Source: an uncultured Acidobacteriaceae bacterium
GTDB taxonomy: Bacteria; Acidobacteriota; Terriglobia; Terriglobales; Acidobacteriaceae
Assembly: GCA_903904755.1 (NCBI GenBank)
Contig: CAIVDV010000009.1
Location: forward strand, 62,001-126,000
Direction of reading: 5' to 3'
DNA: 64,000 nucleotides
Shown: piece after piece, positions 2,110-17,688 of the stretch
How positions within the stretch are numbered: position 1 is the stretch's first letter
How the letters are laid out: the number at the start of each line of letters is the position of its first letter
Made by a program: the position numbers and the translations under genes
Notes under the pieces: generated by a model
What the model was told of the DNA's origin: nothing
The model's input: only the letters and a program-made list of their open reading frames with translations
Database searches by the model: none

Positions 2110-2150
2110 ATGCCCGGCTGGTTTGCCTTCCAGCCGGGCATAACTTTTTG
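2110..2150 (+). terminator. Rho-independent terminator after the S1-domain gene
   Basis: Perfect 12-base-pair stem, ATGCCCGGCTGG at 2110-2121 with CCAGCCGGGCAT at 2130-2141, eight-base loop, then AACTTTTTG. It lies 22 bases after the S1 stop and separates that gene from the next cluster. Confidence 0.9.
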
Positions 2151-2260: not shown

Positions 2261-4219
2261 ATGACTTACAAATGGCGGCGGTGGGCGGTTCCCGGAATCG
2301 CAGCCCTCGTATTGTGTCTTTTTGCAGGGGGATGGGTCTTCTGGCGGGCACAGCAGACACTCAAAAACGCCGAAAGCGGCCTGGCAGGCGCGCGAAGCTT
2401 TGCCGTCGCCGTGGGCCCGGTGGCCTCCCTTCCCAATCCCGGCTTTGAAGCTGTCAGCTCGCCTGCTGCCTTCCGCTCGGCAGCAGAACTCAACGGCCTC
2501 AACTATCTGGCCGGGCCGGCCGGGCTCTTTGCCTACTCCCCCGATGGCACCCTCCAAAAAGCCTACCGCCCCGGCCTCGACTACCCCGCAACCACCCTCG
2601 GCGCAATGCACGTGGCTACGCTCGCCGACTCCAAAGCACCTGAGCTGCTCATCGCCACCGCCAGCGAGGGCGTCCTCGCCTTCGACGGGCAGCACTTCCG
2701 CCAAATCCGCGCCAAAATCCCCGAAGCTCGCGCGGTAACGGCCCTCCTGCCGCTCGGCTCAGGCCGCCTCCTCCTTGGCACCGCAAAGCTGGGCCTGCTC
2801 GTCTACGACGGCAATGCCCTCAGCCGCTTCCATCCCACCACCGACAACCAATACGTCACGGCCCTCGCCGGTAGCGAATCCGACCTCTGGATAGGCACAC
2901 TCGACCACGGCCTCCTCCACTGGCGCGGTGGCCAAACGGAGACCCTCACCGAGGCCGACGGCCTCCCCGACGCCCGCGTCGAATCCATTGTGGTCGACGG
3001 CGACCGCGTCTTTGCCGGAACCCCGGTAGGCGTCGCAGAGATTCGCACCGGCAAAATGGCCCGTGTTCTGGCACCGGGGCGATACGCCAAATCCCTGTTG
3101 GTGGCAAATGGTGAGTTGCTCATCGGCCAGGGTGATGGCGGCATCATGCGCCTCCCGCTGGAAAGCGCCACAGGCCATAACGCGCCCCGGCGGGCAATCA
3201 AAATCACAGGCGAACCTGTCACCCGCACCGGCAGCGACGCCGTCGAAGATATGCTCACCATCGACGGCACAGCCTGGGCCCTGACAGCCAAAGGCCTCCA
3301 GCGCACAGGGGAACAGTCCGCCGAAATTGGTGCCAGCGGCCACCTGCTCTCCGACGGCAACGTCTCCAGCGTCATGGTCGCCGGCGACGGGCGCATCTGG
3401 GTCGGCTACTTTGACCACGGCCTCGACATCCTCTCCTCCGCCGCATCCCAGTCCGCATCCCTCCTCCACATTGAGGATGACCACACCTTCTGCGTCAACC
3501 GCATCACCGAAGACCCCGCTCACGGCACCGTCGCCGTGGCCACCGCCAACGGCCTCGTCATCTTCAGCAAAGACGGCACCCTGCGCCAAACCCTAACCCA
3601 CGAAACCGGCCTCATCGCCAACCACGTCACTGATGTCGCCATCCTCGGCGCGGGCATGGTCGCGGCAACCCCGGCGGGCATCACCTTTCTCGACGAAACC
3701 GGAGCCCACAGCCTCTACGCCTTTGAGGGCCTCGTCAACAACCACGTCTACGCCCTCGGCCTGCGCCCCGGCCAGCAGGCAACAGCGCCCTTCCTCGTCG
3801 GCACGCTGGGCGGAATCAGCCAAATGGCCGCTGAAGCCGTCGCCCGCAACCTCACCACTGCCAACAGCGGCCTCAAAGCAAACTGGATTACCGGCCTCGT
3901 CCCCATCGGCGCAGACTGGCTGGTAGGCACCTACGGCAGCGGCGTGGAGCGCCTGGACGGCACCGGCCAGGTCACCACCACCGATGCCACAAAGAACGGC
4001 GTCGTCGTCAATCCCCTGGCCATGGCCGCAGACAACCGTCTCGTCCTCGCCGGCACACTCGGCCAGGGCCTCCTCGTCGGCGATGCCACCGGAACCCGCT
4101 GGCACACAGTCCTCGGCGGCCTCCCCTCAGCCAATGTCACGGCGGTCGCAATCGACAAGGGCATCGTGTATGTGGGAACCGACAACGGCCTGGTACGAAT
4201 CTCGGAAGACAAGCTGTAA
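2261..4219 (+). CDS. Membrane-anchored beta-propeller protein (two-component-regulator propeller repeats)
   Basis: 652 residues. A basic start (MTYKWRRW) and one hydrophobic helix at about residues 9-28 suggest an N-terminal membrane anchor with the rest outside the cytoplasm. The body consists of repeated blades with the pattern aromatic-hydrophobic-G-T/Y-x-x-x-G-hydrophobic, for example DLWIGTLDHGLLHW, RIWVGYFDHGLDIL and VYVGTDNGLVRI. These resemble the sensor propellers of hybrid two-component kinases, but no kinase or output domain is present. It opens a cluster of overlapping genes, with the next start 11 bases after its stop. A ligand- or partner-binding scaffold is the most that can be inferred. 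Confidence 0.8.
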   Translation: MTYKWRRWAVPGIAALVLCLFAGGWVFWRAQQTLKNAESGLAGARSFAVAVGPVASLPNPGFEAVSSPAAFRSAAELNGLNYLAGPAGLFAYSPDGTLQKAYRPGLDYPATTLGAMHVATLADSKAPELLIATASEGVLAFDGQHFRQIRAKIPEARAVTALLPLGSGRLLLGTAKLGLLVYDGNALSRFHPTTDNQYVTALAGSESDLWIGTLDHGLLHWRGGQTETLTEADGLPDARVESIVVDGDRVFAGTPVGVAEIRTGKMARVLAPGRYAKSLLVANGELLIGQGDGGIMRLPLESATGHNAPRRAIKITGEPVTRTGSDAVEDMLTIDGTAWALTAKGLQRTGEQSAEIGASGHLLSDGNVSSVMVAGDGRIWVGYFDHGLDILSSAASQSASLLHIEDDHTFCVNRITEDPAHGTVAVATANGLVIFSKDGTLRQTLTHETGLIANHVTDVAILGAGMVAATPAGITFLDETGAHSLYAFEGLVNNHVYALGLRPGQQATAPFLVGTLGGISQMAAEAVARNLTTANSGLKANWITGLVPIGADWLVGTYGSGVERLDGTGQVTTTDATKNGVVVNPLAMAADNRLVLAGTLGQGLLVGDATGTRWHTVLGGLPSANVTAVAIDKGIVYVGTDNGLVRISEDKL

Positions 4220-4229
4220 GGAGCACCCG

Positions 4230-6668
4230 GTGAAGCAACAATCGGCGTTGTACAAATTTCGACAAGGCAGCGCAGCAGTCCTCGGGCTGACGCTGGGCCT
4301 GGCCATCTTTTCAGGCATAGCCCACGCCGCCGACACCGGCGTCCTCGTCCCCATGGACAAGCAGGAACCCGACCCCAAGGTCCTCAGCCTCACCGAGATG
4401 CAGGTCGATATCCGCATTGACAACGGCGATGCCCGCGTCTGGATTCGGCAAATCTTCACCAACCACACCAACCGCCAGCAGGAAGGCAACTACCTCTTCG
4501 CCCTGCCCACCGGCACCACCGTCTCCGACTTCGCCGTCTGGGATGGCCCCGTCCGAATCCCCGCCGTCATCCTCGAACGCAAACGCGCCCAGGCCCTCTA
4601 CCAGGAGCTCAAAAGCCAGGCCATCGACCCCGGCCTCCTCCAGCAGGGCGAGCGCAGTGAAGACGACGCCCGCAAAAACTCCATCTTCTCCGCGCACATC
4701 GTGCCCATTCCCGCCTGGGGCACCAAGCGCCTCGAAATCGAGTACCACCAGCACCTCGGCGTCGACGCCCGCAAGAGCTATTTCCTCCTCCCCCTCAAGC
4801 CCGACGCCTACGCCAGCCAGCACGTCGCCCATCTTGAGGTGAAGTTCTCCCTCAAATCCGCCGCTCGCCTCGCCAACTTCGCCATCGCCGCCAAAATTCT
4901 CCCCTTCAAAATCACCCGGCAGGACGAGCACAGCGTCACCGGCGAACTCATCGCCGACAACCTCGACCTCAGCGAAGACCTCGCCGCCACCTGGACTGTC
5001 GCCGAACCCGCCAACGCCGTCCAGGTCATCGCCTACCGCAATCCCCATCCCGAGGCAACCACCGCTAGCCTGGACCTCGCCGCACACCCTGAGGATGCAA
5101 AAGCCGCTGCCAAATCCCCCGCCAAACCCGCCCCGGAACCCGGATTCTTTGAGGCCACAGCCCAGTTGACCGCCGCCAAGCCCGCTGCCACTGCCCCCTC
5201 CGGCGGCCGCACCGTCGTCATCCTCATGGATACCTCCCTCTCCATGCAGTGGGAAAAGCTGGAACGCAGCTACATGGCGGCCTACAAGCTCATGGCAGGC
5301 CTTGGCACAGGCGACCGCTTCAACCTCCTCCTCTTCAATACCCATGTCGACAGCTTCAAACCCGCCCCCGTCCCCGCCGACCCGGCCACCGTGACTGCTG
5401 CCATCAATTGGCTGCGCGCCAGCCACCTCCGCGGCGGCACCGACCTCGGCAAGGCCCTCGAAGCCGGCCTCGCCCAGGCACGCGGTCCCAAGGCCGCGCT
5501 CGTCCTCCTCACCGATGGCGGAGTCGACCGCGGCATCCTCAAAACCGGCAAGCTCACCGCCTGGTACGCCGCCCAGTGGGCCAAAATTCCACCCACCGAG
5601 CGCCCCAAAACCGACGTCTTTGCCGTCGGCGACGATGCCAATCTCCCCCTCCTCCGCATCTTGGCCCGCCAGGGCGGCGTCATGGAAGCCGTCCTCTCCA
5701 GCGAGCCGGTGGACTTCAAACTGGCCTCCTTCATGAGCAAGACCGGCGAAACCCCCATCGGCGACCTGCACCTCACCGTTGGTCCGCAAGCTTCCGTAGA
5801 CAAGGTCTACGCTCTCGAAGATGCCGTCTTTGACAACGGCGAAGAGCGCTGGGTCGGCCAGTATGCCAAGCCCGCCAAAGGCGTCAGCTTCCACGCAGAG
5901 GGCGTCCTCGATTCGCAGTCCCTCAAGGCCGACACCAAAGCCGACCTGCCCGCCGAGGCCCTCGAACACGATCAGCTTCCCCGCCTCTGGGCCTGGGCTC
6001 GCGTCCAGGCATTGCTGGAGCAAATTGAGCGCGACGGCGAAACCGAAGCCGCCGTTCAGGAAATCATCCGCCTCGCCCGCAAATACAAATTCGTCACCCC
6101 CTACACATCCTTCCTCGCCGCCCCGCGCGCCCTCCTTCGCCCCAGGGTCATCCGCCCTGGCGACCCCGTTCTCCGCGTTCACACTGACGCGGCAATCGTC
6201 TCCGTCATGGCCCTCTTCCCCTTCGGCCTGGAAAAACCCCTCAAGTACCTCTCCGGCGAAGATGTCTGGGAAACCCGCTTTCTCGCCCCCGAAGACATGC
6301 AGGACGGCAGCTACACCGTGCGCCTCCTCCTCCGAGACAAGAACGACCAGGTCTACCGCGAGACCAAGAGTTTCGTCATCGCCTCCAAGCCGCCCACCGT
6401 GAAGGTCCATCTCAATCGCACCCGTTACCGGGCCGGCGAAGTGGTCCCGCTCAAGGTCAGCGCATCAGCCAACACCCGCACCCTGACGGCGCGCCTCGAA
6501 GGCCTCGCCCCGGTCAGCCTGCGCTGGAACCACGAGGCGGAAGCGAGTACCGGAATGCTGGAGTTGCCGCAGAGCCTGCCCGCGGGGCGGTACACGGTCA
6601 CGGTGACGGCAGAAGATGTGGCGCACAACCTGGGCACGGCGGAGGTGCAGCTTGATGTTCTTCCCTGA
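4230..6668 (+). CDS. Secreted VIT and von Willebrand factor A domain protein
   Basis: 812 residues from a GTG start with AAGGAG six bases upstream. The reading frame is open further upstream, but that part lies inside the preceding gene. A signal peptide ends near ..SGIAHA-ADTG. The VIT domain covers roughly residues 45-170 (FALPTGTTVSDFAVWDGP). The VWA domain starts near residue 328 with a complete MIDAS: D334-T-S336-L-S338, T404 in GGTDLG and D429 in LLTDGG, so divalent-cation-dependent ligand binding is expected. A C-terminal Ig-like region follows from about residue 710. I see no LPxTG sorting motif and no C-terminal membrane helix, unlike the sortase-target VIT/VWA proteins of marine proteobacteria, so it is probably periplasmic or released. 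Its stop overlaps the next start by 14 bases. Confidence 0.9.
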   Translation: MKQQSALYKFRQGSAAVLGLTLGLAIFSGIAHAADTGVLVPMDKQEPDPKVLSLTEMQVDIRIDNGDARVWIRQIFTNHTNRQQEGNYLFALPTGTTVSDFAVWDGPVRIPAVILERKRAQALYQELKSQAIDPGLLQQGERSEDDARKNSIFSAHIVPIPAWGTKRLEIEYHQHLGVDARKSYFLLPLKPDAYASQHVAHLEVKFSLKSAARLANFAIAAKILPFKITRQDEHSVTGELIADNLDLSEDLAATWTVAEPANAVQVIAYRNPHPEATTASLDLAAHPEDAKAAAKSPAKPAPEPGFFEATAQLTAAKPAATAPSGGRTVVILMDTSLSMQWEKLERSYMAAYKLMAGLGTGDRFNLLLFNTHVDSFKPAPVPADPATVTAAINWLRASHLRGGTDLGKALEAGLAQARGPKAALVLLTDGGVDRGILKTGKLTAWYAAQWAKIPPTERPKTDVFAVGDDANLPLLRILARQGGVMEAVLSSEPVDFKLASFMSKTGETPIGDLHLTVGPQASVDKVYALEDAVFDNGEERWVGQYAKPAKGVSFHAEGVLDSQSLKADTKADLPAEALEHDQLPRLWAWARVQALLEQIERDGETEAAVQEIIRLARKYKFVTPYTSFLAAPRALLRPRVIRPGDPVLRVHTDAAIVSVMALFPFGLEKPLKYLSGEDVWETRFLAPEDMQDGSYTVRLLLRDKNDQVYRETKSFVIASKPPTVKVHLNRTRYRAGEVVPLKVSASANTRTLTARLEGLAPVSLRWNHEAEASTGMLELPQSLPAGRYTVTVTAEDVAHNLGTAEVQLDVLP

Positions 6669-9600
6669 ACGGAATCCTGAAGTCGCTGCAAAGCAACCCG
6701 CCATCCTTCGCGGCCTCGCCGCCGCCGGGGTCACGGCAGCAGTAGTACTGGCCGCACCGTGGCTCATCTCCGGAACCGTGCGCGGGGCAGCCTCCAGCCT
6801 TGGGCACCTCTGGCCCACCATCCTCGGCAGCCGCGCCATCACCGTCGGCTCCGGCCACGGCTTTGCTCGCTGGGTCGAGAATCTTGAGGCCGGATCCGCT
6901 GCAGAAAAGGCAATCTTCCGCCTCATGACGCTCCCCGGCGGCCAGGTGCTCTTCCGTCGTCCCGCAGCCGAAAGCATTCCCGCTCTCGGTCAAACAGGCT
7001 CAGACGACGCCAGCCTCTACAGCCTCCGCGCTCTCGAAGAAGAGAACGGCCAAAACTTTGACGCCGCCGAAAAAGACTGGAAAACCTGGGCGGCCAAAGC
7101 TGCCGACAAGCCAGCCGCATATCTCGACCTCGCCGACTTCTACCAGCGCCGTCTGCGGCCAGCAGACGAGCTTGCAGCCCTCGAAGCCATCGGCGCAAGC
7201 CCGGTCGCAGCCGATGAAAAGCGCGTCGCCCCCGAAGACCAGCGCGCCTGGAAGGCCTGGGCCCGCACCCTGACCGTCGTCGACGACTACGCCCTCGGCC
7301 GCGCCGTCAAGGAGCGGGAGTACGCCGCCTGGAGCGCCCGCTACCCACAAGATCCGCGCCTCTACCAGCAGCAGCTCGGCTTCCAGCTCGAAGGCAGGCA
7401 GTTCGACAAGGCGGCGCAAATCATCGCCCAGTACCGCAAGGCCTTCCCTGGCGACGAGGTCTACCCCGTCGAGGCCGAGGCACAACTCGCCACCGCCAAA
7501 GGCACCGCAGCCGATGGGCTTGCCGTCTATGAGCGCAGCTTCCGTCCCGATTGGCCGGCAGATCTCGTCAACGCCTACCTCGGCGCAGTCTCGGCCAGCG
7601 GCGGAGAGCGCGCCATGGCCGACCGCCTCCGCGCCAAACTCGCCGCCGACGGCAACGACTGGCAGAACGCCGTCCGCCTCTTTGATCTCGAGCAGCACCG
7701 CGGCCAGTTGGAGGCCGCCAAAGCTGTCCTCAGCAGCTACCGCGAGCGCAAGGACGCCTCCGGAGCCACCTGGACACCGGAAGAGCTCGGAACCTTCTCC
7801 CAGCTCTATGAGGGAGTTTCCGACTACCCTGAAGCCGCCCGCTTCTACTACGCCCAGGCCGCGGACGAAAAGCACCCCGATTCCCAGCAGCGCGGCATTG
7901 CCGGCCTCGCGCGGATTCTCCTCGCCGCGCCAGAGCAGCCCTTGCGCCTCGGCGCTGCCAACCTCGCCATGTACAAGAGCATCGCCCGCATGGACCGCGG
8001 GCCGGGCTACCTCAACGGAATCCTCTCTCTCTGGCTCAACACCCAGGGCCCCGATGGCGAGTTTGCCAGCGAAAACCAGACCGCGCAGCCCTACTTCCGC
8101 CGCGCCCGCGCCGCCGAACTCGTCGCCGACCTCGACAAGCGATTCCCTGCCAGCACCGACCGCCCCGCCCTCCATCTCGCCCTGATGCACGCCTATCAGG
8201 TCTACGGAGAGAACGACGCCGTCATCCGCGAAGGCGAAGGCTACCTGGCCCAGTTTCCCAAAGACCCCCAGCGCATCACCGGTGCCATGGAGCTGGCCGA
8301 CGCCTACGTCCGCACTGGCCAAACGCAGAAGGAATTCGCCCTCTATCAGCAACTCCTCAAGGAACTCGCCGCAGCAGCCGACGGCGTCCCCCTCGGCGAC
8401 GGCTTCTCCGGCTCCCGCCACCCCGGCGAAGTCCGCCGAACCATCGCGCAGCCCACCAACGCAGTCGCCGTCTTCACCCAGCAGCAGGAGGACCCAAATC
8501 CCGAGAGCCAGATAGCCTCCTCTATCGCGAACTCCGCCAGCTACCAGCAGGTCCTCGACCGCTACCTCTCCCGCCTCGTTTCCCTCCAGCGCCTCCCCGA
8601 CGCCCTCGCCGTCCTCAAGGGCGAGCTCGACCGCAACCCCCAGGACCCCGGCCTCTACCAGCGCCTCGCAGACTTCTTCGAGCAGAACGCGCTCAACGCC
8701 CACGTCGAAGAGGTCTACCAAAAGGCCATAGACCACTTCCAGGAGACCGGCTGGTACGCCAGGCTGGCCCGCTTCTACCTCCGCAGCAAGCGCAAGGCGG
8801 AGTACGGCGACCTCACCAAAAAGGTGACAGGAATCTTCGCCGGAACCGAACTCGAAGACTATCTCAAGGACGCTCCCGCGCCCGACGCCTCCATGGGAGC
8901 CGAGGTCAGCCGCTTCGCCCTCACCCGCTTCCCCCACAACCTCACCTTCGTACGCCGCCTACTCAACACGAGCACCAAAAACGGCGTCACCGACGCAGAG
9001 CGCGAGCAACTCCTCTGGGCCCACTGGGCTGAGGCCACCGACCTCCGCAACGATCTCCTCCAGCGCCTCAGCTGCACCGGCAAGCTGGCAAGCACCCTCG
9101 CGTCCCTCAACTCCGAAGCGCCTGAAATCAGCAAAGGCGACTGGGCCGGGCTTACCAAACGCAACCCCGCCGCCGGACGCCTCTGGGTCGAAGCCAACCT
9201 CTGGCAGTCGCACTACGAGCAGGCTGTCGACGAGGCCGGCGAACTCGCCCGTGCCTATCCCGCCGACGGAACCGTCACCGACGAAGCAACCAGCCTCTAC
9301 CGCTCCTTTGCCTACTTCCACCCCGAGGATACCGACAAGGCAGCCGCCACCGCCCAGCTGCTCGTCAACGCAAATCCAGCAGATCTCGACCGCATGGCAC
9401 GCGTCGGTGACATCTACGCCGACCGCGAGCGCATGGCCGAAGCCGGCCCCTGGTTTGCAAAGATGGCCAAAGCCCGCCCCGGAGTCGCCAACGGCTACCT
9501 CCAGGCCGCCACAGTCTACTGGGACTACTTCGACTTCCCGGCCGCCCTCGCCCAACTGCAGGCCGGCCGCGAAAAACTCGCCCAGCCCACCCTCTACGCC

Positions 9601-12600
9601 TACGAAGCCGGCGCAGTCCTCGAAAGCGAAGGCCAGCGCGAAGCAGCCCTCAGGGAGTACCTCTCCGGCGCACTCGCAGATACCCCCTCCGACGACTGCC
9701 GCCTGCGCCTCATGGCTCTCGCCAAACGCCGCGATGCCGGCCCCCTCATCGAGGCCGCCACCGGCACGCTCCTCACCAAAGGTCAACCCACCTCCTCAGC
9801 CATCGCCCTGCGCGTCGCCGTCCTCGATGCCACCGGGCACAAAACCCAACTGGAGCAGGAACTCCGCGCCGCAGTCGGAATTGCCTCAACCCTCGGACTC
9901 CTCGACCAGCTCAGCTCCGTCGCAGAGCAGCATGCCCTCGCCCCCGTCCAGGAGTTGGCACTCCGCCGCCAGATTGCCCTCACCACCGACCCGGCCCGCG
10001 CCCTAGACCTGCGTTATCAGTTGGTCAACAAACTCGCAGAGCGCAGCCGTGCCGATGCCTCCGCTGAAGTCGACGCAATCTACCGCGACCACGCCAAGGT
10101 GCTCGGCGTCATCCGCGCCACCGTCGACTACAACTGGGACCACCAGCGTCGCGACCAGGCAATCACCGTGCTCACCGCCGCAGCCGCTGCGGCCTATCCT
10201 GAGCTCGCCGCCAGCTTCCGCCTGGAAGCCGCGCGCAAGCTCACCGAACTCGGCGACACCGCCAAATCCAGCAAGCTCCTCCAAGCACTCCTGGCCGAAA
10301 AGCCCCTGGACCCCGCCTACGAAGCAGCTATGCAGGAGAACCTCGCCAAGGCAGACGACACCGCCGGCCTCCAGGCCTTCAACCAGTCTCAAATGGACAA
10401 GGTCCGCCAGGCCTCGCTCGACAAGGACGAAAAAACCACCCGCATAGCCCAACTGCGCCGAGGCATTATCACCGCGGCAACAAAACTGAAAAAGCCTGAG
10501 GAGGCCACCGACCAGTACATCGAGTTGGCCAAGGCCTACTCCGACGATGCTGGCCTCGAGCAGGAAGCCGCCCTCTACGCCCTCGACCACGGCACCCGCG
10601 ACCGTCTCTTCGCTTACTTCCGCAAGGCCGTCGCCGATTCGCCCCGCGACGCCCGCTGGCCCATCGTTGTCGCTCGCATGGCTACTGCGGCCGAAGACTA
10701 TCCCATGGCCGTCGACTACTACGCCAAAGCCATCCTCCTCCGTCCCGAGCGCCGCGAGCTCGTCGAGGCCCAGGCTGACCTCTACGTGCGCCTCCATCGC
10801 CTCGACGAGGCCGTCGCCGACTACCAGAAGCTCTACACCCTCAGCTACAAAGACCCCGCCTGGATGGAGAAGACTGCCGAAGTCCGCGCCCGCCAGGGCC
10901 GCACCGCAGATGCCGTGGCAGCACTGGAAATCGCCTGGATTGCCGGCCGCAAACCTGACGCCGGCCGCTGCTTCACAGTCGCCCAGAAGCTCGAAGCCTG
11001 GGGCCTCCTCGACGATGCCCGCAAGTACGCTGAGCAGGGCCTGTCCCTCGCCGGCGATGACCTCCTCGTGGACGGCACCGACCAGCAGGGCGCGGCAGTC
11101 TACGCCCGCATACTCGCCCGCCAGCGCCAGGCCGACGCAGCCTTTACCCGCCTCGCCCAGGCACGCGAAAAGGCCGCCACACTCACCGTCTCCGTCGTGG
11201 CCCAGCAGGTCCAAAAGGAAGGTGCCGGCGCAGTCACCGACCAGGAATGGCGGCAACAGCGCATCTACCAGCGCGAGCAGGCTGCCACCGGCGGCTTTGC
11301 TCGTGCACTGGCGGCAATCGGCTCAGTCGCTGGCGAGTTCTACACCCCCGAAGAGAAAGCCCAGTTCGCCGGCTGGCTCGCCGGCAAGCGCGGCAACTCC
11401 GGCCTTGAGGAGCTCGGAACCGTCTACCTCCCCACCGCCAAGGCAGCCGGTCTCGAAGACCTCGTCGCCGAATGGGGCTGGGAGCGCATCGCCAACAGCG
11501 ACGACGCCCGCCACAGCGAGCTCAGCGCCTGGATCAGCTCCCAGGAGAACCGCGGACTCGCAGCCGAAGCCGCCGCCCAGATCGAAAAACTCGCGGGAAC
11601 CATCAAGAAAATCGATGACAAGCGCAGCCTCTGGCAGACAGCAACCGGTTTGTATGCCAAACTCGGCAACCGTGCCGGCGAGCTCCGGACCCTGCAGGCC
11701 CTTGTCACCAGCGCAGGCGGCAACGGCACCCAGGACCGCTACTACGCCCTCCTCCTCGCCCAGCGCCCACAGGCCATGGTCGCTGAAGCCCGAAACGACG
11801 CAGGCGCGCAATACCTCGTAGCCCACGGCACCCCCGACCAGGCCCAGGCCGGCGTCGCCACCCGTGCCCAGCGCCTCCAGCCAATCTGGAAGAGCGCCTA
11901 CACCGCCCTCACCGGCCTCTACATGCGCCAGTCCGGGCCGGAGATTGGCCAGGCCTTCGCCGCAACCCTTGGCGACGCCACCATCGGCGACCGCGTTGAC
12001 CATCCCGTCAACCGCGAGCAGCAACTCGCCGGCGAAACCTGGTTCTACTACGCCGCCCGCTACGCCGCCTGGCTCGACGCCGACAAGGACCCCCGCGGAG
12101 ACGACTACCGCGAGGCCGAACTTGAGCAAACGCCCGAAAGCGCCCAGGCCTACCGTCTCCTCGCCGACCATGAACAGGAACTCGGCCGCACCGACGCCGC
12201 CCTAGCCGACTATCAGGACTCCCTCGAGCTCCACCCCGACCAGCCCGCCGTCGTCGACGCCATGGCAACAATCCACTGGCAGGCCGGCAGGCAGCCCGAG
12301 GCCCTGCAGGAGTGGACCCACGCCGTGGAATTGCTCGCCGCGGAAATCGACGCCCGCCACGTCCCCGAAACCTTCTGGGGAGACTTTTCCCAGGTCGTCG
12401 CCAGCCTGGCCGCCAAGCGGCAATATGCGACAATCCGCCCCGGAATCGACGGCCTCCTCCACACCTACATCGCCCGTAACGGCGAGTACATGACCGACTC
12501 GCTCCTCGAGGCCGCCTACCACGCCGAAGGCGACAGCCTTGCCTGGGTACTCACCGCAGCGGGCTGGGCCAAAGAGCCCTCCGTCGTCCTCGATGCAATC

Positions 12601-14040
12601 CCCACCTCCGAAACCTACGGTGGCCATCCCTGGCTCAAGAAGCAAGATGTAATAGGCCTGCGGCGCCGCATCCTGGAGCTGGCCGAAGCGCAGCCCGCCG
12701 ACAACCCTGAAATCACCGGCTATGCTGTCAACTCCGCCCGCCGCAACCTGGTGGAGTCGCTCGAAGACGCGAAAGACTACACCGGAGCCCGCCAGGTCAT
12801 GGCCGCGCTCAAGCCCGGCGAACGCAACAGCAGCGAGTGGCTGGGCCTCTGGCTTGCCGCTCAGGAGTCCGACGGACGCCTCGACCAAACCCTCTCCGCC
12901 TGGAAAGCTGGTGCTCCCGACGCCCCCGACGCCACAACCCTCCGCCAGCGACGCGGCAGCCTCACCGAAAAAGGTAGCCGCGCAGTCATGCGCTTCGTCT
13001 ACGAGCAAGCCATCGGCAATCGCGAACTCACTGAGGTCAACTTCCTCGGCCTCGCCGATATTCGCCTCACCGAAGGCGACCCCGCGGGAGCCATGGAACT
13101 CCTGCGCCGCATGACCCTCGTCGCCGGCGACCCCTGGACCGAGAGCGACGCAGCCGCGGCAGTCCTCGAAAAGCACCAGCGCTGGGCTGAGGCAGTCGGC
13201 TTCCTCAAGCCCCTCGCCGAGGCCTCCCCCTGGAAAGCCACCTACCGCCTTCGCCTGGCAAAGGCGATGCTCGGCGTAACTCCCGCCGCGCCCGACGCCG
13301 TCGCCATGCTCGCCATCGTCGCTGCCGATCCCAACGCCGGCTATGACACCCGCCTCTCCGCAGCCTCCGCCCTCCACGGCCTGCCCACAACCACCACCCC
13401 CGGCAGCGCCGAACTTGCCCTCGTTGAAAGCGCCGGATGCCCCTCCGCCGACGCCGCCGCCAAGCCCTTCTTCACCGTCGCGCGCGAGACTGCGGCCGCC
13501 TGTGCCGGCAAGCCCGCCGTCGCCGAAAAGCTCCTCCACGAGGCCCTGGCCAACCAGCCTGACGACCGCGCCTTGCGGCTCAAGTACGTCTGGGCCGCCT
13601 TCGATGCCGGCTCAGACTCCCGCGCCCTCATCGCCGCCGAGCCCTTCCTCGACTCCTTCGAAGGTTACAGCTACATGCGCTACCGCAGCGCCTCGGCAGC
13701 CGGCGAAGACGACAACGGCGAGCCCGTCACCCTGCTCCAGCCCGCCGACAAACTCAAGCTCTACCAACTCGCCGAAAAGACCCGCGAAAAACGCCTGGAA
13801 CCCTCCGAAGCCCTCTCCCTCGTCAAATCCGCGAAGGAGTTCGTCAAGGACCCCCGCCAGCTCGCCGCCTTTGACGAAATCCAGAAGCGCCTCCAACTCG
13901 ACGCCGACCGCGAATCTGAAAACGCCGCCCGCGCACCCACCATCCACAACGACCTCGTCCAGGACCACGTAGTCGAGCCGCGTATCCTGCCGGGAATGTC
14001 CTTTGTCCGCCGCGTCAAGGCCGATGAGGAGGGAGACTGA
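6655..14040 (+). CDS. Giant membrane-anchored tetratricopeptide-repeat protein
   Basis: 2461 residues from ATG 6655, which has GGAGGTG seven bases upstream. One hydrophobic helix at about residues 20-38 (AAGVTAAVVLAAPWLI) anchors the N-terminus. Almost all the rest is alpha-helical, Ala/Leu-rich solenoid with many degenerate TPR units (for example YYAKAILLRPERRELVEAQA, LYVRLHRLDEAVADYQKLY). I saw no catalytic motif and no thioester CxEQ of alpha-2-macroglobulins. Such solenoids act as scaffolds for multiprotein complexes. The position between a MIDAS-containing protein and peptidoglycan-type proteins suggests it organises them in the periplasm. No frameshift is apparent across 7.4 kb. The start overlaps the previous gene and the stop overlaps the next ATG (TGATG), implying translational coupling. 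Confidence 0.85.
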   Translation: MFFPERNPEVAAKQPAILRGLAAAGVTAAVVLAAPWLISGTVRGAASSLGHLWPTILGSRAITVGSGHGFARWVENLEAGSAAEKAIFRLMTLPGGQVLFRRPAAESIPALGQTGSDDASLYSLRALEEENGQNFDAAEKDWKTWAAKAADKPAAYLDLADFYQRRLRPADELAALEAIGASPVAADEKRVAPEDQRAWKAWARTLTVVDDYALGRAVKEREYAAWSARYPQDPRLYQQQLGFQLEGRQFDKAAQIIAQYRKAFPGDEVYPVEAEAQLATAKGTAADGLAVYERSFRPDWPADLVNAYLGAVSASGGERAMADRLRAKLAADGNDWQNAVRLFDLEQHRGQLEAAKAVLSSYRERKDASGATWTPEELGTFSQLYEGVSDYPEAARFYYAQAADEKHPDSQQRGIAGLARILLAAPEQPLRLGAANLAMYKSIARMDRGPGYLNGILSLWLNTQGPDGEFASENQTAQPYFRRARAAELVADLDKRFPASTDRPALHLALMHAYQVYGENDAVIREGEGYLAQFPKDPQRITGAMELADAYVRTGQTQKEFALYQQLLKELAAAADGVPLGDGFSGSRHPGEVRRTIAQPTNAVAVFTQQQEDPNPESQIASSIANSASYQQVLDRYLSRLVSLQRLPDALAVLKGELDRNPQDPGLYQRLADFFEQNALNAHVEEVYQKAIDHFQETGWYARLARFYLRSKRKAEYGDLTKKVTGIFAGTELEDYLKDAPAPDASMGAEVSRFALTRFPHNLTFVRRLLNTSTKNGVTDAEREQLLWAHWAEATDLRNDLLQRLSCTGKLASTLASLNSEAPEISKGDWAGLTKRNPAAGRLWVEANLWQSHYEQAVDEAGELARAYPADGTVTDEATSLYRSFAYFHPEDTDKAAATAQLLVNANPADLDRMARVGDIYADRERMAEAGPWFAKMAKARPGVANGYLQAATVYWDYFDFPAALAQLQAGREKLAQPTLYAYEAGAVLESEGQREAALREYLSGALADTPSDDCRLRLMALAKRRDAGPLIEAATGTLLTKGQPTSSAIALRVAVLDATGHKTQLEQELRAAVGIASTLGLLDQLSSVAEQHALAPVQELALRRQIALTTDPARALDLRYQLVNKLAERSRADASAEVDAIYRDHAKVLGVIRATVDYNWDHQRRDQAITVLTAAAAAAYPELAASFRLEAARKLTELGDTAKSSKLLQALLAEKPLDPAYEAAMQENLAKADDTAGLQAFNQSQMDKVRQASLDKDEKTTRIAQLRRGIITAATKLKKPEEATDQYIELAKAYSDDAGLEQEAALYALDHGTRDRLFAYFRKAVADSPRDARWPIVVARMATAAEDYPMAVDYYAKAILLRPERRELVEAQADLYVRLHRLDEAVADYQKLYTLSYKDPAWMEKTAEVRARQGRTADAVAALEIAWIAGRKPDAGRCFTVAQKLEAWGLLDDARKYAEQGLSLAGDDLLVDGTDQQGAAVYARILARQRQADAAFTRLAQAREKAATLTVSVVAQQVQKEGAGAVTDQEWRQQRIYQREQAATGGFARALAAIGSVAGEFYTPEEKAQFAGWLAGKRGNSGLEELGTVYLPTAKAAGLEDLVAEWGWERIANSDDARHSELSAWISSQENRGLAAEAAAQIEKLAGTIKKIDDKRSLWQTATGLYAKLGNRAGELRTLQALVTSAGGNGTQDRYYALLLAQRPQAMVAEARNDAGAQYLVAHGTPDQAQAGVATRAQRLQPIWKSAYTALTGLYMRQSGPEIGQAFAATLGDATIGDRVDHPVNREQQLAGETWFYYAARYAAWLDADKDPRGDDYREAELEQTPESAQAYRLLADHEQELGRTDAALADYQDSLELHPDQPAVVDAMATIHWQAGRQPEALQEWTHAVELLAAEIDARHVPETFWGDFSQVVASLAAKRQYATIRPGIDGLLHTYIARNGEYMTDSLLEAAYHAEGDSLAWVLTAAGWAKEPSVVLDAIPTSETYGGHPWLKKQDVIGLRRRILELAEAQPADNPEITGYAVNSARRNLVESLEDAKDYTGARQVMAALKPGERNSSEWLGLWLAAQESDGRLDQTLSAWKAGAPDAPDATTLRQRRGSLTEKGSRAVMRFVYEQAIGNRELTEVNFLGLADIRLTEGDPAGAMELLRRMTLVAGDPWTESDAAAAVLEKHQRWAEAVGFLKPLAEASPWKATYRLRLAKAMLGVTPAAPDAVAMLAIVAADPNAGYDTRLSAASALHGLPTTTTPGSAELALVESAGCPSADAAAKPFFTVARETAAACAGKPAVAEKLLHEALANQPDDRALRLKYVWAAFDAGSDSRALIAAEPFLDSFEGYSYMRYRSASAAGEDDNGEPVTLLQPADKLKLYQLAEKTREKRLEPSEALSLVKSAKEFVKDPRQLAAFDEIQKRLQLDADRESENAARAPTIHNDLVQDHVVEPRILPGMSFVRRVKADEEGD

Positions 14041-15791
14041 TGCCAATGCAACCCAAATTCAACCGGATGCGAAATTGGCTCGCGGTAGCCCTCGGCGCCT
14101 GCCTCGTCAGCGGCGTCTACGCGGCCGTCGAGCTCAACGCGCCCATGACCGCCCTGCTGCCCGCTCTCATGCCGCAGGGCGCGCTCCTCTACGTGGAAAC
14201 CCCCGACCTGCACGCCCTCCTCGGCGAGTGGAACCAGAGCGCCGAGCAGAAAGCCTGGCTCATGGGGGCAAATTACCAGGCCTTCAGCCGCTCCCGCCTC
14301 TTCGGCCGCCTCAGCCAGGCGCAGGACGAGTTCTCCAACACCGCCGGCCTCCCCGCCGACAGCTCCCTCCTCTCGACCGTATCAGGCCGCGAAAGCGCCC
14401 TCGCCGTCTACGACATCGGCAACCTGGAGTTTGTCTTCGTCACTCGCATGGACGAGGCAACCCTCGCCTCCTCTCCGCTCTGGCAGCTGCGCGGCAAATT
14501 TGAAGAGCGTAAGGCCGGCGAAACCACCTTCTACACCCGCAAGGACGAGCAGTCCGGCCGTGTCGCCAGCTTCGGCGCTGCCAAAGGCTGGCTCGTCATC
14601 GCCACCCGCGAAGACCTCACCGCCAGCGTACTCGGGCGAGTCAACGGCGCGGAAGACCGCACCCTCACCGAAGAGCCCTGGTACGCCGCCCTCGGCCATC
14701 TCGCCACCAGCCAGCCCGAGCTGCGGATGGCCCTCAATCTCGAAAAAATCGTCCCCTCCCCCTACTTCCGCAGCTACTGGATCCAGCGCAACATCACCGA
14801 AATGAAGCAGTACTCCGCAGCCGAAAGCGACCTCTACCGCGAATCCGGCCTCTTCCGCGAAGAGCGCCTGCTCATCCGCAAAGCCGCGGAAGAAACGCCC
14901 GGCCCGCAGCCCGTCACCATCGGTGACCTCGCCCAGATGCGCGGCACAATCCCCGAAGATGCAACCTTTGTCCAGGGCCAGGCCGCCCCCACCCCTGAGG
15001 CCGTCCTCGCTGCCCTGCGCGACGATGTTCTGGAACGCAAACCCGAGGGCTGGAGCAGCGGCAACACCACCGCTCCTCACGCAGCGGGGATGGATGGCAA
15101 CGTGGGCGCCGGAGAAATGGAAACCAAAATCGACGACGCCCCCAAAGTCACCGTCGCGCCCGATTCCTGGCTGGCAATCAGGCAGACTCTCGCCGCAGCC
15201 GCCCCCACCGCCCTGGTCGAGGTCTTCGAAGACCGCCCGCCCGTGGCCGATGGAGTTTTCGTCCGCCTCGATGCCGGCTGCGCCGTCATGAGTTCGCAAG
15301 CCTGGAACCTCCCCGCCGTCGAGGATGCCGTCGTGCATTCCCTCGGCGCAGGCATCACCGCTGGCGGCCTCGGCACTGGCTGGCAACAGCGCACCGGCGC
15401 CGGCGGCAGCTACCAGACCCTCACCGGCGCCGTGGGCCTGTATCTGGCCGTGCGCGACCGCATCCTCCTCGTCACCACCGACCCCACCCTCATGGAATCC
15501 ATGCTGGCCGGCCTCAAATCCGGCGCGGTCCGACCCACCGGCATCACCTATGCCGCCCGCTTCCGCCACTCCAAAGACGAGCAGGAAAACTACAAGCGCC
15601 TCTTCACCCGCCTCGACCGTGTCAGCCGGGGCGCTGCCAGCTCCGACAGCGATGAAGGCCAGCAACCCGCCTTCTTCAGCGGAAACATCGGCAGCCTCGA
15701 CCGCACCTTCGCCGCACTCACCGAGGAGCAGGTCGTCGAGCGCGACCAGGGCACCCGCGTAACCCAGACGGTGACCTACCGGTGGAAGTAG
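14040..15791 (+). CDS. Exported DUF3352/DUF2138-like protein of unknown function
   Basis: 583 residues. A signal sequence or anchor lies at about residues 13-29 (WLAVALGACLVSGVYAA). The early MPQGALLYVETPDLHALL segment and the later GWLVIATREDLTASVL and RILLVTTDPTLMESML segments resemble proteins of the DUF3352 type, where each half of a repeated fold ends with a 'who is larger' style beta strand; DUF2138 (E. coli YfaA, P. aeruginosa MagB) is the other candidate. I recognise no catalytic residues. It starts on the A of the previous TGA, and its end overlaps the next gene's possible GTG start. Family membership is a judgement from pattern, not a search. Confidence 0.7.
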   Translation: MPMQPKFNRMRNWLAVALGACLVSGVYAAVELNAPMTALLPALMPQGALLYVETPDLHALLGEWNQSAEQKAWLMGANYQAFSRSRLFGRLSQAQDEFSNTAGLPADSSLLSTVSGRESALAVYDIGNLEFVFVTRMDEATLASSPLWQLRGKFEERKAGETTFYTRKDEQSGRVASFGAAKGWLVIATREDLTASVLGRVNGAEDRTLTEEPWYAALGHLATSQPELRMALNLEKIVPSPYFRSYWIQRNITEMKQYSAAESDLYRESGLFREERLLIRKAAEETPGPQPVTIGDLAQMRGTIPEDATFVQGQAAPTPEAVLAALRDDVLERKPEGWSSGNTTAPHAAGMDGNVGAGEMETKIDDAPKVTVAPDSWLAIRQTLAAAAPTALVEVFEDRPPVADGVFVRLDAGCAVMSSQAWNLPAVEDAVVHSLGAGITAGGLGTGWQQRTGAGGSYQTLTGAVGLYLAVRDRILLVTTDPTLMESMLAGLKSGAVRPTGITYAARFRHSKDEQENYKRLFTRLDRVSRGAASSDSDEGQQPAFFSGNIGSLDRTFAALTEEQVVERDQGTRVTQTVTYRWK

Positions 15792-16660
15792 TGCTGGCGG
15801 CAAAAGGCCGCACCCCTCAATTCTGGAGAACGGCGCTCTTCGCCTGCCTGGCGCTCGCCGCTCTCCTCATCCCCGCCGCTCACGCACAGGCCACTCTCTT
15901 TGCCCAGGGCGCAGCCGCCCGTCTGGAATCCCGTTTCGGTAGCCGCCCTCTCAGTTGGATCCTCCTCGATGCGACCGGCAAGCCCATCCTCCAGCACTGG
16001 CTCGACCCCAACAAACCAGTACCGCCGGGTTCCCTTGCCAAGCCCTTTACCGCCCTCGCCTGGGCTGACCAGCACCAGGGCGCATTTCCTCAACTCGTGT
16101 GCCACGGCGCAAAAGGCCGCTGCTGGCTGCCCCGTGGCCACGACCGCCTGGGCCTCGAAGAAGCACTCGCCCAAAGCTGCAACGACTACTTCCTCGGCCT
16201 CGCGAACGGCCTCGATGCGTCCCGGGCACGCACCTTCGTCCAGCAATTCGGCCTCGCCGGCCCCGCACAGGGCGCCACCCCCGAGGCCTGGGTCGGGCTC
16301 ACTCCCGATTGGCAGGAACGCCCCGAAACCCTCGCCCGCGCCTTCTGGCAACTCAGCCAGCAGCACGATTCCGTAGCCGCCCAGGTCCTCGCCGGCATGG
16401 CCGCCTCTGCCGCCCACGGCACCGCCCGCGCCATCGACTCAGCTCTCGCCCCCGGCGCAGCCCTCGCCAAAACCGGCACCGCGGCCTGCACCCATACCCC
16501 CCGAGGCCCAGCCGACGGCTTCGTCGTGGTCCTCTACCCGGCAGAAGCACCCCGTCTCCTCCTCCTCGTCCGGGCACACGGCAAAACCGGCGCTGCCACC
16601 GCCGCAATTGCCGCAGAAATGCTGCGCTCCCTCGATCTCGCCCCCGGAGCCAAACCATGA
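15782..16660 (+). CDS. Small exported penicillin-binding/transpeptidase-fold protein
   Basis: 292 residues if the GTG at 15782 is used; GTG 15791, overlapping the previous TAG, is an equally good start. A signal peptide ends near PAAHA-QATL. All three motifs of the serine penicillin-recognising fold are present in the right order: S84-L-A-K87 (PGSLAKPFTALAW), S132-C-N134 (AQSCNDYF) and K230-T-G (LAKTGTAAC). So it should acylate on Ser84 with beta-lactam-like or D-Ala-D-Ala-like substrates. It is short for a PBP and has no N-terminal pedestal domain, as in DUF2300-type (YfaQ/MagC) and class-D-like proteins. Extra cysteines (VCHGAKGRCW, SCN, AACTH) may form disulphides. It shares an ATGA overlap with the SpoIID-like gene. 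Confidence 0.82.
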   Translation: MEVVLAAKGRTPQFWRTALFACLALAALLIPAAHAQATLFAQGAAARLESRFGSRPLSWILLDATGKPILQHWLDPNKPVPPGSLAKPFTALAWADQHQGAFPQLVCHGAKGRCWLPRGHDRLGLEEALAQSCNDYFLGLANGLDASRARTFVQQFGLAGPAQGATPEAWVGLTPDWQERPETLARAFWQLSQQHDSVAAQVLAGMAASAAHGTARAIDSALAPGAALAKTGTAACTHTPRGPADGFVVVLYPAEAPRLLLLVRAHGKTGAATAAIAAEMLRSLDLAPGAKP

Positions 16661-17688
16661 AGCGGTCGGCAATCGCGTTGGCCCTCGCGGCCTCAGCGGC
16701 CAGCCTTTTCGCCCAGGTGCCGCCCACAGTCAAGGTCAGCGTCCTCGGCCTCTTCCACCCCGCCGTACTCGTAATCGAGCCCGACAACCAGCCCGTCCTC
16801 GCAACCAGCGGCGAAACTCAGGTCCTCCTCTCTCATGAACCGGGCGCGCAACGCCTCGAGCTCCGGGCCGCCACAATCACCCCAGCCGCAACCTGGACCT
16901 TCGCCGCCCGCGACGGCGGGCCGGTCAACTTCGCCGTCACTGTCCCCGGCAAAATCCACCGCGTCTACCGCGGCGTCCTCAACATCACCGCCCAGGCCGG
17001 CATCCTCACCGCCGTCGTCACCATGGACCGCGAAACCGCTGTCGCCAGCATCGTCGCCGCTGAAATGCCCCCCGGCACGCCGCTCGAAGCCCTCAAGGCC
17101 CAGGCCGTCGCCGCACGCTCCTATCTCTCCGCCGGCCCCCGCCACACCGCCGACGCCTTCGACTTCTGCGACACCACCCACTGCCAGTTCCTCCGCTCGC
17201 CCCCTGCCCCAGCCACCGCCGCCTCCCGTGCGGCTTCCGAAACCCGCGGCCTCGTCCTCCGCTACAACAACCAGACAATCGCCGCCATGTACGCCAGCCG
17301 CTGCGGTGGCCACACCCACAGCCTGCGCGAGGTCGGCCTCGAGCCGGATTCCGCTGGCCAGGGCTACCCCTACTACGGTGTCGTCTGCCGCGCCTGCCGC
17401 CGCCATCCCCAGCCCTGGACAAGCGACGTCGCCGGGCCAAAACCGGTACCCGGCAGCGAGCGCCGCCGCATCGCCGAAGTCCGCCAGTGGGGCTGGGGCG
17501 CTCTGCCCGGCTCCACCTTCACCGCCACCAAAGACGGCGACTCCTGGCAGGTCACCGGACTCGCCGTCGGCCATGGCCTCGGCCTCTGCCAGTTCGGCGC
17601 CTCCGAAATGGCCCGCGAAGGCGCAACCTTCCGCGCAATCCTCCGCCACTACTATCCCAATGCCGAGGTTAGTCAGGCACCGAGGTGA
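16657..17688 (+). CDS. SpoIID/LytB-domain protein, probable peptidoglycan lytic transglycosylase
   Basis: 343 residues from ATG 16657, overlapping the previous stop (ATGA). A signal peptide ends near SASAASLFAQ. The SpoIID domain is clear: the catalytic glutamate E136 sits in IVAAEMPPGTPLEALKAQ, followed by AVAARSYLSAG, then SRCGGHTHSL and a C-x2-C segment (VVCRACRRHP) that in SpoIID proteins contributes to metal binding, and GHGLGLCQFGASEMA near the end. SpoIID enzymes cleave glycan strands lacking stem peptides. In endospore formers this drives engulfment; in a non-sporulating phylum the role must be different, probably wall remodelling with the adjacent transpeptidase-fold protein. Last gene of the cluster. 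Confidence 0.9.
   Translation: MKRSAIALALAASAASLFAQVPPTVKVSVLGLFHPAVLVIEPDNQPVLATSGETQVLLSHEPGAQRLELRAATITPAATWTFAARDGGPVNFAVTVPGKIHRVYRGVLNITAQAGILTAVVTMDRETAVASIVAAEMPPGTPLEALKAQAVAARSYLSAGPRHTADAFDFCDTTHCQFLRSPPAPATAASRAASETRGLVLRYNNQTIAAMYASRCGGHTHSLREVGLEPDSAGQGYPYYGVVCRACRRHPQPWTSDVAGPKPVPGSERRRIAEVRQWGWGALPGSTFTATKDGDSWQVTGLAVGHGLGLCQFGASEMAREGATFRAILRHYYPNAEVSQAPR

Follow-up and report, generated by a model that had tools for sequence, protein, structure and literature searches.

A 64,000-nucleotide stretch of DNA from an uncultured Acidobacteriaceae bacterium (GenBank assembly GCA_903904755.1, contig CAIVDV010000009.1, positions 62,001 to 126,000 of the forward strand; hereafter, the window) carries six tightly packed plus-strand genes over about 15 kb (2261-17688). 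They encode, in order, a beta-propeller protein (PROP), a VIT/VWA protein, a giant tetratricopeptide repeat (TPR) protein, a protein that we call D3352, a transpeptidase (TP) and a SpoIID-type protein. The six genes are one conserved unit. From their sequences we consider it somewhat more probable than the contrary (about 0.55) that they constitute one operon for a periplasmic scaffold complex tethered to the inner membrane and equipped with an accessory pair of peptidoglycan-remodelling enzymes.

In the proposed complex, the giant TPR solenoid would act as the scaffold, and PROP and D3352 would tether it to the inner membrane, much as MagB tethers MagD in Pseudomonas aeruginosa, where, according to the Mag study, MagB is the sole Mag protein with a predicted transmembrane helix (PMC5764988). 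The VIT/VWA protein would bind a partner or ligand through its metal-ion-dependent adhesion site (MIDAS). TP would relink or trim peptides and SpoIID would cut glycan strands, both locally to the complex, and we infer that ligand capture could in this way be coupled with peptidoglycan remodelling.

Conservation and distribution of the six genes

Related loci were retrieved from the GTDB collection with the TPR profile alone, which returned 117 relatives, the best 80 of them giving 79 loci. Presence was called from profile hits on six-frame open reading frames (ORFs), and order was counted from plus-strand hits above 50 bits only, so that a 78-bit minus-strand PROP hit in locus L043 is among those dropped. 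Gene tables of the other loci come from a simple ORF picker, which is prone to wrong frames in high-GC DNA. The order PROP-VIT-TPR-D3352-TP-SpoIID was violated in none of the 79 loci, and this intact order rules out chance adjacency. At least three of the six families were visible in 72 of the 79 loci (one family in 2 loci, two in 5, three in 7, four in 19, five in 10 and six in 36). Where the flank sufficed, PROP was present in 56/57, VIT in 62/62, D3352 in 60/60, TP in 48/59 and SpoIID in 43/57 loci. Both flanks were complete at 47 loci, of which 33 hold all six genes; the other 14 lack TP and SpoIID (7 loci), SpoIID (5), TP (1) or PROP and SpoIID (1), and a recount of the 47 with deeper profiles and a looser cut-off gave an identical table. 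Co-occurrence of the genes in other genomes, on which the initial annotation had made its proposal depend, is therefore borne out by both the order and the joint presence. Evidently the core four genes can be kept without the TP-SpoIID pair. Culturable soil strains that carry the cluster include Granulicella rosea DSM 18704 (L049) and Granulicella mallensis (L044), and at the latter locus both enzymes are missing.

All 79 loci are titled as Acidobacteriota taxa with the sole exception of L046 ('Betaproteobacteria'), which sits beside L079 in the TP-SpoIID tree and whose taxon label is probably wrong; reach beyond the phylum was judged from the same TPR-based contig scan (two short patterns) and from plasmid searches. 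Within the phylum, the distribution is wide and patchy. D3352 was found in 25 of 297 genomes (E<=0.001) and in 11 of 100 genomes of the order, the window's own counted, and two congeners lack it. PROP-type propellers occur in 188 of the 297 genomes at E<=0.001, and at E<=1e-50, a cut-off set only after inspecting the match list, in exactly the 25 genomes with D3352. In 21 of these 25 genomes D3352 lies inside the cluster (judged by spacing only in G269 and G162), and G156 has a TPR-D3352 pair only. The next-best PROP genomes (G204, G298, G258 and G242) hold a divergent version of the cluster with TP and SpoIID fused (L167-L170), spread across two contigs in G298. For G204, G258 and G242, D3352 was identified as the product of the fourth gene in this version (hhalign 2e-16).

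Spread on known plasmids was ruled out, with no D3352 match and one weak PROP match in 72,556 plasmid records. An empty site was sought without success around the S1-type gene in G075, G031, G002 and G058, where none of the four neighbours tested from the window turned up.

The TP and SpoIID proteins

The SxxK, SxN and KTG motifs are all complete in TP (S84LAK, S132CN and K230TG), their residues are invariant in 40 aligned sequences, and comparison with the PDB returned penicillin-binding protein (PBP) matches from 3.5e-14. The profile match and the three motifs together mark TP as a predicted class B PBP transpeptidase domain. The initial annotation was right to see a transpeptidase here, and its wording, 'minimal transpeptidase fold', understated a protein with the full motif set. 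The SpoIID assignment also stood up: besides the Pfam match (Table 1), the protein matches SpoIID in the PDB at 6.5e-34 and has a conserved Glu (E136) in 61 of 61 sequences, which we take to be the catalytic residue. By profile match and conserved Glu, it would be a lytic transglycosylase.

Motif and Glu counts are restricted to loci where the length of both genes allowed their inclusion in the TP-SpoIID tree. TP motifs are complete in 42/45 cluster copies, 4/4 fused-cluster copies, 6/6 copies linked to alpha-2-macroglobulin (A2M), 3/4 other copies and 0/2 YfaQ proteins. The incomplete cluster copies are L154 and L155, which read KTS, and L098, whose sequence lacks the first motif. SpoIID proteins also adjoin ClpX-like AAA ATPase genes at L175:8264-10411 and L176:3452-4678 (G107 and G331, one family); the SpoIID ORF of L175 additionally carries a VTT domain.

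Relation to YfaQ and to A2M loci

Escherichia coli YfaQ is encoded in the yfaA-T-S-Q-P operon, and a published study already describes it as a transpeptidase-like half joined to a SpoIID-like half; it also reports that cells without yfaQ are wider and that their phenotype profile is linked to peptidoglycan and envelope mutants, namely the mepS, mepK and nlpI deletions (PMC12282094). This phenotype fits the proposed wall-editing role of the enzyme pair. The TP profile aligns with YfaQ 42-199 (hhalign E 2e-7, score 59.5 vs a background maximum of 23.7) and the SpoIID profile with YfaQ 287-398 (E 7.6e-8, 63.8 vs 23.4). Each background consists of 94 comparisons with single sequences (47 other proteins and their reversals), and the YfaQ profile is built from two sequences. 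Pfam SpoIID also matches YfaQ itself (7e-6). On these alignments, each of TP and SpoIID is a homologue of one half of YfaQ, with the order kept. The E. coli and Citrobacter YfaQ proteins (L020:3149-4798 and L159:15758-17404) read SCG and KTW at the second and third transpeptidase motifs and keep the SpoIID Glu, which suggests that the transpeptidase half is likely a decayed enzyme.

The initial annotation had likened the last three genes of the cluster to the yfa/mag genes. The profile-profile matches of TP and SpoIID to YfaQ sustain that likeness to the yfa/mag families for two of them; homology of D3352 to DUF2138 is not established. In the proposed check with DUF2300, the profile matched neither TP nor SpoIID and exceeded its cut-off in 0 of 297 genomes. 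The lone sub-cutoff DUF2300 match in these genomes is at L110 (G192:C51:18468-18602; 21.6 of 25 bits, E 3.3e-4), within an open frame of 903 aa that is possibly another YfaQ-like protein.

Membership of the cluster in the Mag/Yfa operon is ruled out. DUF1175 (YfaT) and DUF2135 (YfaP) have no match in the six products at E<=1, and the six products contain no A2M beyond a weak MG2 match. A2M is absent from the cluster, as initially noted, and none was found in the bacterium's own genome (97.5% complete) either, where PF00207 gave 0 matches and the E. coli control was positive.

Ten loci with TP-SpoIID pairs outside the cluster were picked among the better hits, not at random; of these, L186 spans only 3 kb, too little for an assessment. 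A full A2M (MG2, bait region, A2M, TED and bMG10) lies nearby in six of the nine assessable loci (Table 1). The other three, L174, L181 and L182, have no ORF of A2M length (longest 1250, 1005 and 911 aa), and the neighbours scanned there (four, two and one, respectively) are either proteins of other kinds or unmatched. The A2M-linked pair is fused in five loci and split in L180, with complete motifs. In the five loci checked (all except L183), A2M is followed by a hydrophobic protein of 236-266 aa that by eye has several transmembrane segments; it has no Pfam match and no match to YfaT or YfaP. Relatives of the TP-SpoIID pair, as recognized by profile, therefore occupy two settings in one phylum, this cluster and the vicinity of A2M.

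The VIT/VWA protein

An alignment of 38 VIT proteins shows no variation at the five MIDAS residues (D334/S336/S338/T404/D429), which bears out the initial description of the protein as MIDAS-complete. Its nearest solved relatives are ITIH4 (1.7e-35, profile 34-604) and ITIH1 (2.4e-35, profile 40-603), with about 570 residues aligned. Beyond this heavy-chain core lie about 200 conserved C-terminal residues, Ig-like by weak Pfam hits only, and Pfam also gives a weak MG2 match (0.0044) below the cut-off.

This relationship raises a different reading of the cluster as a Mag-like periplasmic defence complex, in which the TPR and anchor proteins would hold a VIT/VWA protein that traps proteases in place of A2M. 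According to a published review, ITIH4 is a plasma protease inhibitor that, once cleaved, inhibits MASP-1 and MASP-2 as a non-covalent complex (PMC10855846). Homologous TP-SpoIID pairs both near A2M and in the cluster also fit a defence role. The alignment of 38 VIT/VWA sequences speaks otherwise: no bait-like variable region was found past the heavy-chain core, the most conserved stretch of the protein (residues 626-650, mean 0.95) comes directly after that core, and the sole internal gap-rich variable stretch is a linker at about 276-300, ahead of VWA. The conserved stretch occupies the position of the protease-sensitive region of ITIH4, which lies after the heavy-chain core. Moreover, an A2M locus coexists in G338 and G345 with the core cluster, the latter without its own TP or SpoIID, so the two systems are not simple substitutes. 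We consider a defence complex quite unlikely. Because the stretch past the core is the most conserved one and the only variable stretch is the linker before VWA, MIDAS-dependent binding is favoured over protease trapping as the predicted activity of the VIT/VWA protein.

The giant TPR protein and D3352

The predicted 2461-residue TPR protein was recovered as described, by weak Pfam matches to TPR families and by matches to solved TPR chains. Its C-terminal tail motif, N..R.P.....L.Q...V.PRL, is conserved at a level of at least 70% among 46 aligned sequences.

D3352 proved harder to place. It has no Pfam or NCBIfam family match at E<=1, so the initial DUF3352/DUF2138-like assignment, from whose DUF3352 label we took the name, finds no backing in profile searches, and the DUF2138 profile PF09909 matched 0 of 297 Acidobacteriota genomes. 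Profile-profile comparison with E. coli YfaA gave E 0.043 over 170 colinear columns, with a score of 24.4 vs a best background score of 23.1 (94 comparisons), a narrow margin; adding three divergent members gave 0.033 and the divergent clade alone 0.6. A search for a wider range of DUF2138 sequences brought up only 7 plasmid records (6 from Escherichia) and 7 viral contigs 91-99% identical to the E. coli sequence. The likeness of D3352 to MagB is architectural only, comprising about 580 residues, an N-terminal anchor and placement in the operon.

Relatives of D3352 are found beside SPFH/Band-7 genes (L143:11313-13226 and L146:11413-13356) and beside a GAF-SpoIIE phosphatase (L148:11740-13653 and L149:8494-10404). 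D3352 belongs to a wider protein family, which the Pfam scan of the window member missed.

Weighing the scaffold complex

Several observations count against a tethered scaffold complex with a dedicated enzyme pair. The relatives of D3352 next to SPFH or SpoIIE/GAF genes lie outside the cluster, and PROP and D3352 are more than 240 kb apart in G187, G211 and G248. TP and SpoIID are jointly missing from 7 of the 47 loci with full flanks and are for that reason not obligatory. Across the phylum, only the best few TP candidates per genome were scored, and among the matches listed G040 matches neither enzyme profile (8/37 TP candidates and 41/41 SpoIID candidates scored); G084 has no SpoIID profile match. 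Peptidoglycan chemistry is therefore not the core function. Near A2M, the pair lies on the A2M strand at L172 and L173, the only two of the six loci that could yield a joint transcript; at the remaining four, pair and A2M are convergent. In the FastTree tree, the A2M-linked clade (0.92) falls among lineages linked to the cluster, with low support for this placement (0.596 and 0.678). Finally, MagC, presumably the YfaQ counterpart, reportedly showed no stable complex with MagD; if it is that counterpart, the idea of enzymes docking on the giant protein is weakened.

Taken further, the absences would make TP and SpoIID mere neighbours of a four-gene unit whose function is unrelated to peptidoglycan. 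The seven loci without both enzymes, the six more without one and the one without SpoIID and PROP fit such an arrangement, as does the lack of either enzyme match in G040. It is hard to reconcile with the position and order that TP and SpoIID hold whenever present, with the overlap of TP and the D3352 gene in the window, and with the divergent cluster, where the two are fused and still in place. We regard it as very improbable.

An apparatus that assembles or anchors a surface structure or secreted polymer was considered as well. The propeller and VIT/VWA protein would bind cargo, the TPR protein would span the periplasm and the enzymes would open the sacculus; trans-envelope machines commonly depend on lytic transglycosylases for an opening in the wall. 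The cluster products have sub-cutoff NCBIfam matches in keeping with such a role, although their bit scores are far under the cut-offs: PorZ of the type IX secretion system (25.6 of 260), the PEP-CTERM (XrtA) TPR protein PrsT (45.7 of 312.2) and a marine sortase-target VIT protein (123.3 of 551.65). In flanks of up to 10 kb there is no recurrent seventh gene, the best neighbour family reaching 10 of the 79 loci on mixed sides and strands, which leaves the cluster without any constantly linked outer-membrane or secretion partner. This explanation appears unlikely.

We therefore retain the tethered scaffold complex with an accessory enzyme pair as the working interpretation. A bolder proposal, which we hold only tentatively and place below even odds, is that the cluster represents an undescribed phylum-wide envelope machine with a four-protein core (propeller, VIT/VWA, TPR protein of about 2450 residues and D3352) and an active TP-SpoIID cassette, as with bacterial A2M. 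If so, a single peptidoglycan-editing module would serve giant periplasmic proteins of two unrelated classes, with E. coli YfaQ as a decayed remnant of that module. The convergent orientation of four of the six A2M-linked pairs and the MagC result lower our confidence in a shared module.

Among the titles and abstracts listed, none gives a description of this cluster. In the titles and passages we found neither an explanation for the presence, in a bacterial A2M operon, of a protein that joins a transpeptidase half to a SpoIID half, nor a description of intact YfaQ relatives encoded separately in an operon without A2M. The pair with complete motifs occurs in two settings, a non-A2M scaffold operon (separate or fused) and near A2M, and the role of a YfaQ-type protein is therefore testable in harmless soil bacteria. 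The analysis also supplies a definite hypothesis of function for an operon of about 15 kb that is found repeatedly in Acidobacteriota and whose giant proteins mostly lack annotation.

Gene layout and surroundings

The six near-overlapping genes have the coordinates and sizes initially given (Table 1). PROP and VIT/VWA are separated by a 10-nt gap, and the following junctions overlap by 14, 1, 10 and 4 nt. The export signals or N-terminal anchors ascribed to all products, including that of the propeller, were largely recovered: across the six families, 53 of 58 sequences pass a crude hydropathy count for an N-terminal hydrophobic segment, the failures being one TP and four SpoIID sequences, with start sites uncertain for some.

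Table 1 Coordinates of the cluster genes, the upstream hairpin and the A2M-linked TP-SpoIID loci
Feature	Position	Strand	Evidence or remarks
Terminator-like hairpin, between the S1-type gene and the cluster	2110..2141	+	12-pair stem, 9 GC pairs, T-rich tail
PROP, beta-propeller (Reg_prop), N-terminal hydrophobic anchor, 652 aa	2261..4219	+	Pfam Reg_prop 1.6e-9; alignment n=10
VIT/VWA protein, GTG start, N-terminal export segment, 812 aa	4230..6668	+	Pfam VIT 2e-18, VWA_3 2.8e-10
Giant TPR protein, N-terminal export segment, conserved C-terminal tail motif, 2461 aa	6655..14040	+	TPR families and solved TPR chains
D3352, N-terminal hydrophobic segment, about 580 aa	14040..15791	+	No Pfam/NCBIfam match; family alignments
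TP, predicted stand-alone class-B-PBP-type transpeptidase domain, GTG start, 292 aa	15782..16660	+	Pfam Transpeptidase 5e-10
Putative SpoIID-type lytic transglycosylase, E136, CDTTHCQ motif, 343 aa	16657..17688	+	Pfam SpoIID 5.5e-19
A2M and TP-SpoIID, L172	3755-11831
A2M and TP-SpoIID, L173	3461-11960
A2M and TP-SpoIID, L178	114-10229
A2M and TP-SpoIID, L179	3290-11200
A2M and TP-SpoIID, L180	2380-10368
A2M and TP-SpoIID, L183	2951-10578

The hairpin is a pattern match only, and such matches are no more frequent than in shuffled sequence (18 in the region vs 17.0). Upstream of it lies an S1-domain gene (135-2087), which was ruled out as a cluster member, since G058 has the cluster on C24 and S1 on C78. 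The genome encodes two multi-S1-domain proteins, this one, with a long N-terminus rich in Pro, Ala and Glu, and another at G000:C9:182650-184479. Downstream of the cluster are a minus-strand major facilitator superfamily transporter gene and a copper amine oxidase gene. Further on, window positions 22344-52877 form a polysaccharide-use neighbourhood with an outer-membrane barrel carrying a carboxypeptidase-regulatory domain, GH115, GH8, GH31 and a resistance-nodulation-division (RND) pump.

Comparison with known systems

TP shares SxxK/SxN/KTG with class B PBPs such as PBP2/MrdA, whereas its 292 residues leave no room for their extra domains. The SpoIID protein has the conserved Glu and the CDTTHCQ motif of SpoIID/LytB lytic transglycosylases, and the window pair differs from both enzyme families in sharing one operon with a TPR protein. 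Like the inter-alpha-trypsin inhibitor heavy chains ITIH1 and ITIH4, the VIT/VWA protein has, by sequence, a VIT and VWA heavy-chain core; unlike them, its family has the conserved C-terminal residues in place of a bait-like variable region.

The E. coli yfa operon offered one further observation: YfaT (DUF1175, L020:9337-9960) has a sub-cutoff NlpC/P60 match (E 4e-4, 20.8 of 23 bits), which is a second pointer to hydrolysis of peptidoglycan in that operon. The window cluster differs from Mag (magABCDEF) and yfaA-T-S-Q-P in having no A2M, DUF1175, DUF2135 or DUF2138 match, in adding the propeller, the VIT/VWA protein and the giant TPR protein, and in its complete TP motifs, which are degenerate in both YfaQ proteins examined. 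It resembles them in that a single operon encodes both a membrane-anchored protein of about 570 aa and a periplasmic protein of very large size, and in the homology of TP and SpoIID, here two adjacent genes, to the halves of YfaQ. The A2M loci of Acidobacteriota likewise have a homologous TP-SpoIID pair with complete motifs, and there A2M replaces the PROP, VIT/VWA, TPR and D3352 proteins of the window cluster. We accordingly rate the cluster not as a Mag/Yfa operon itself but as fitting a broader kind, complexes of a giant periplasmic protein that come with a transpeptidase-SpoIID pair.

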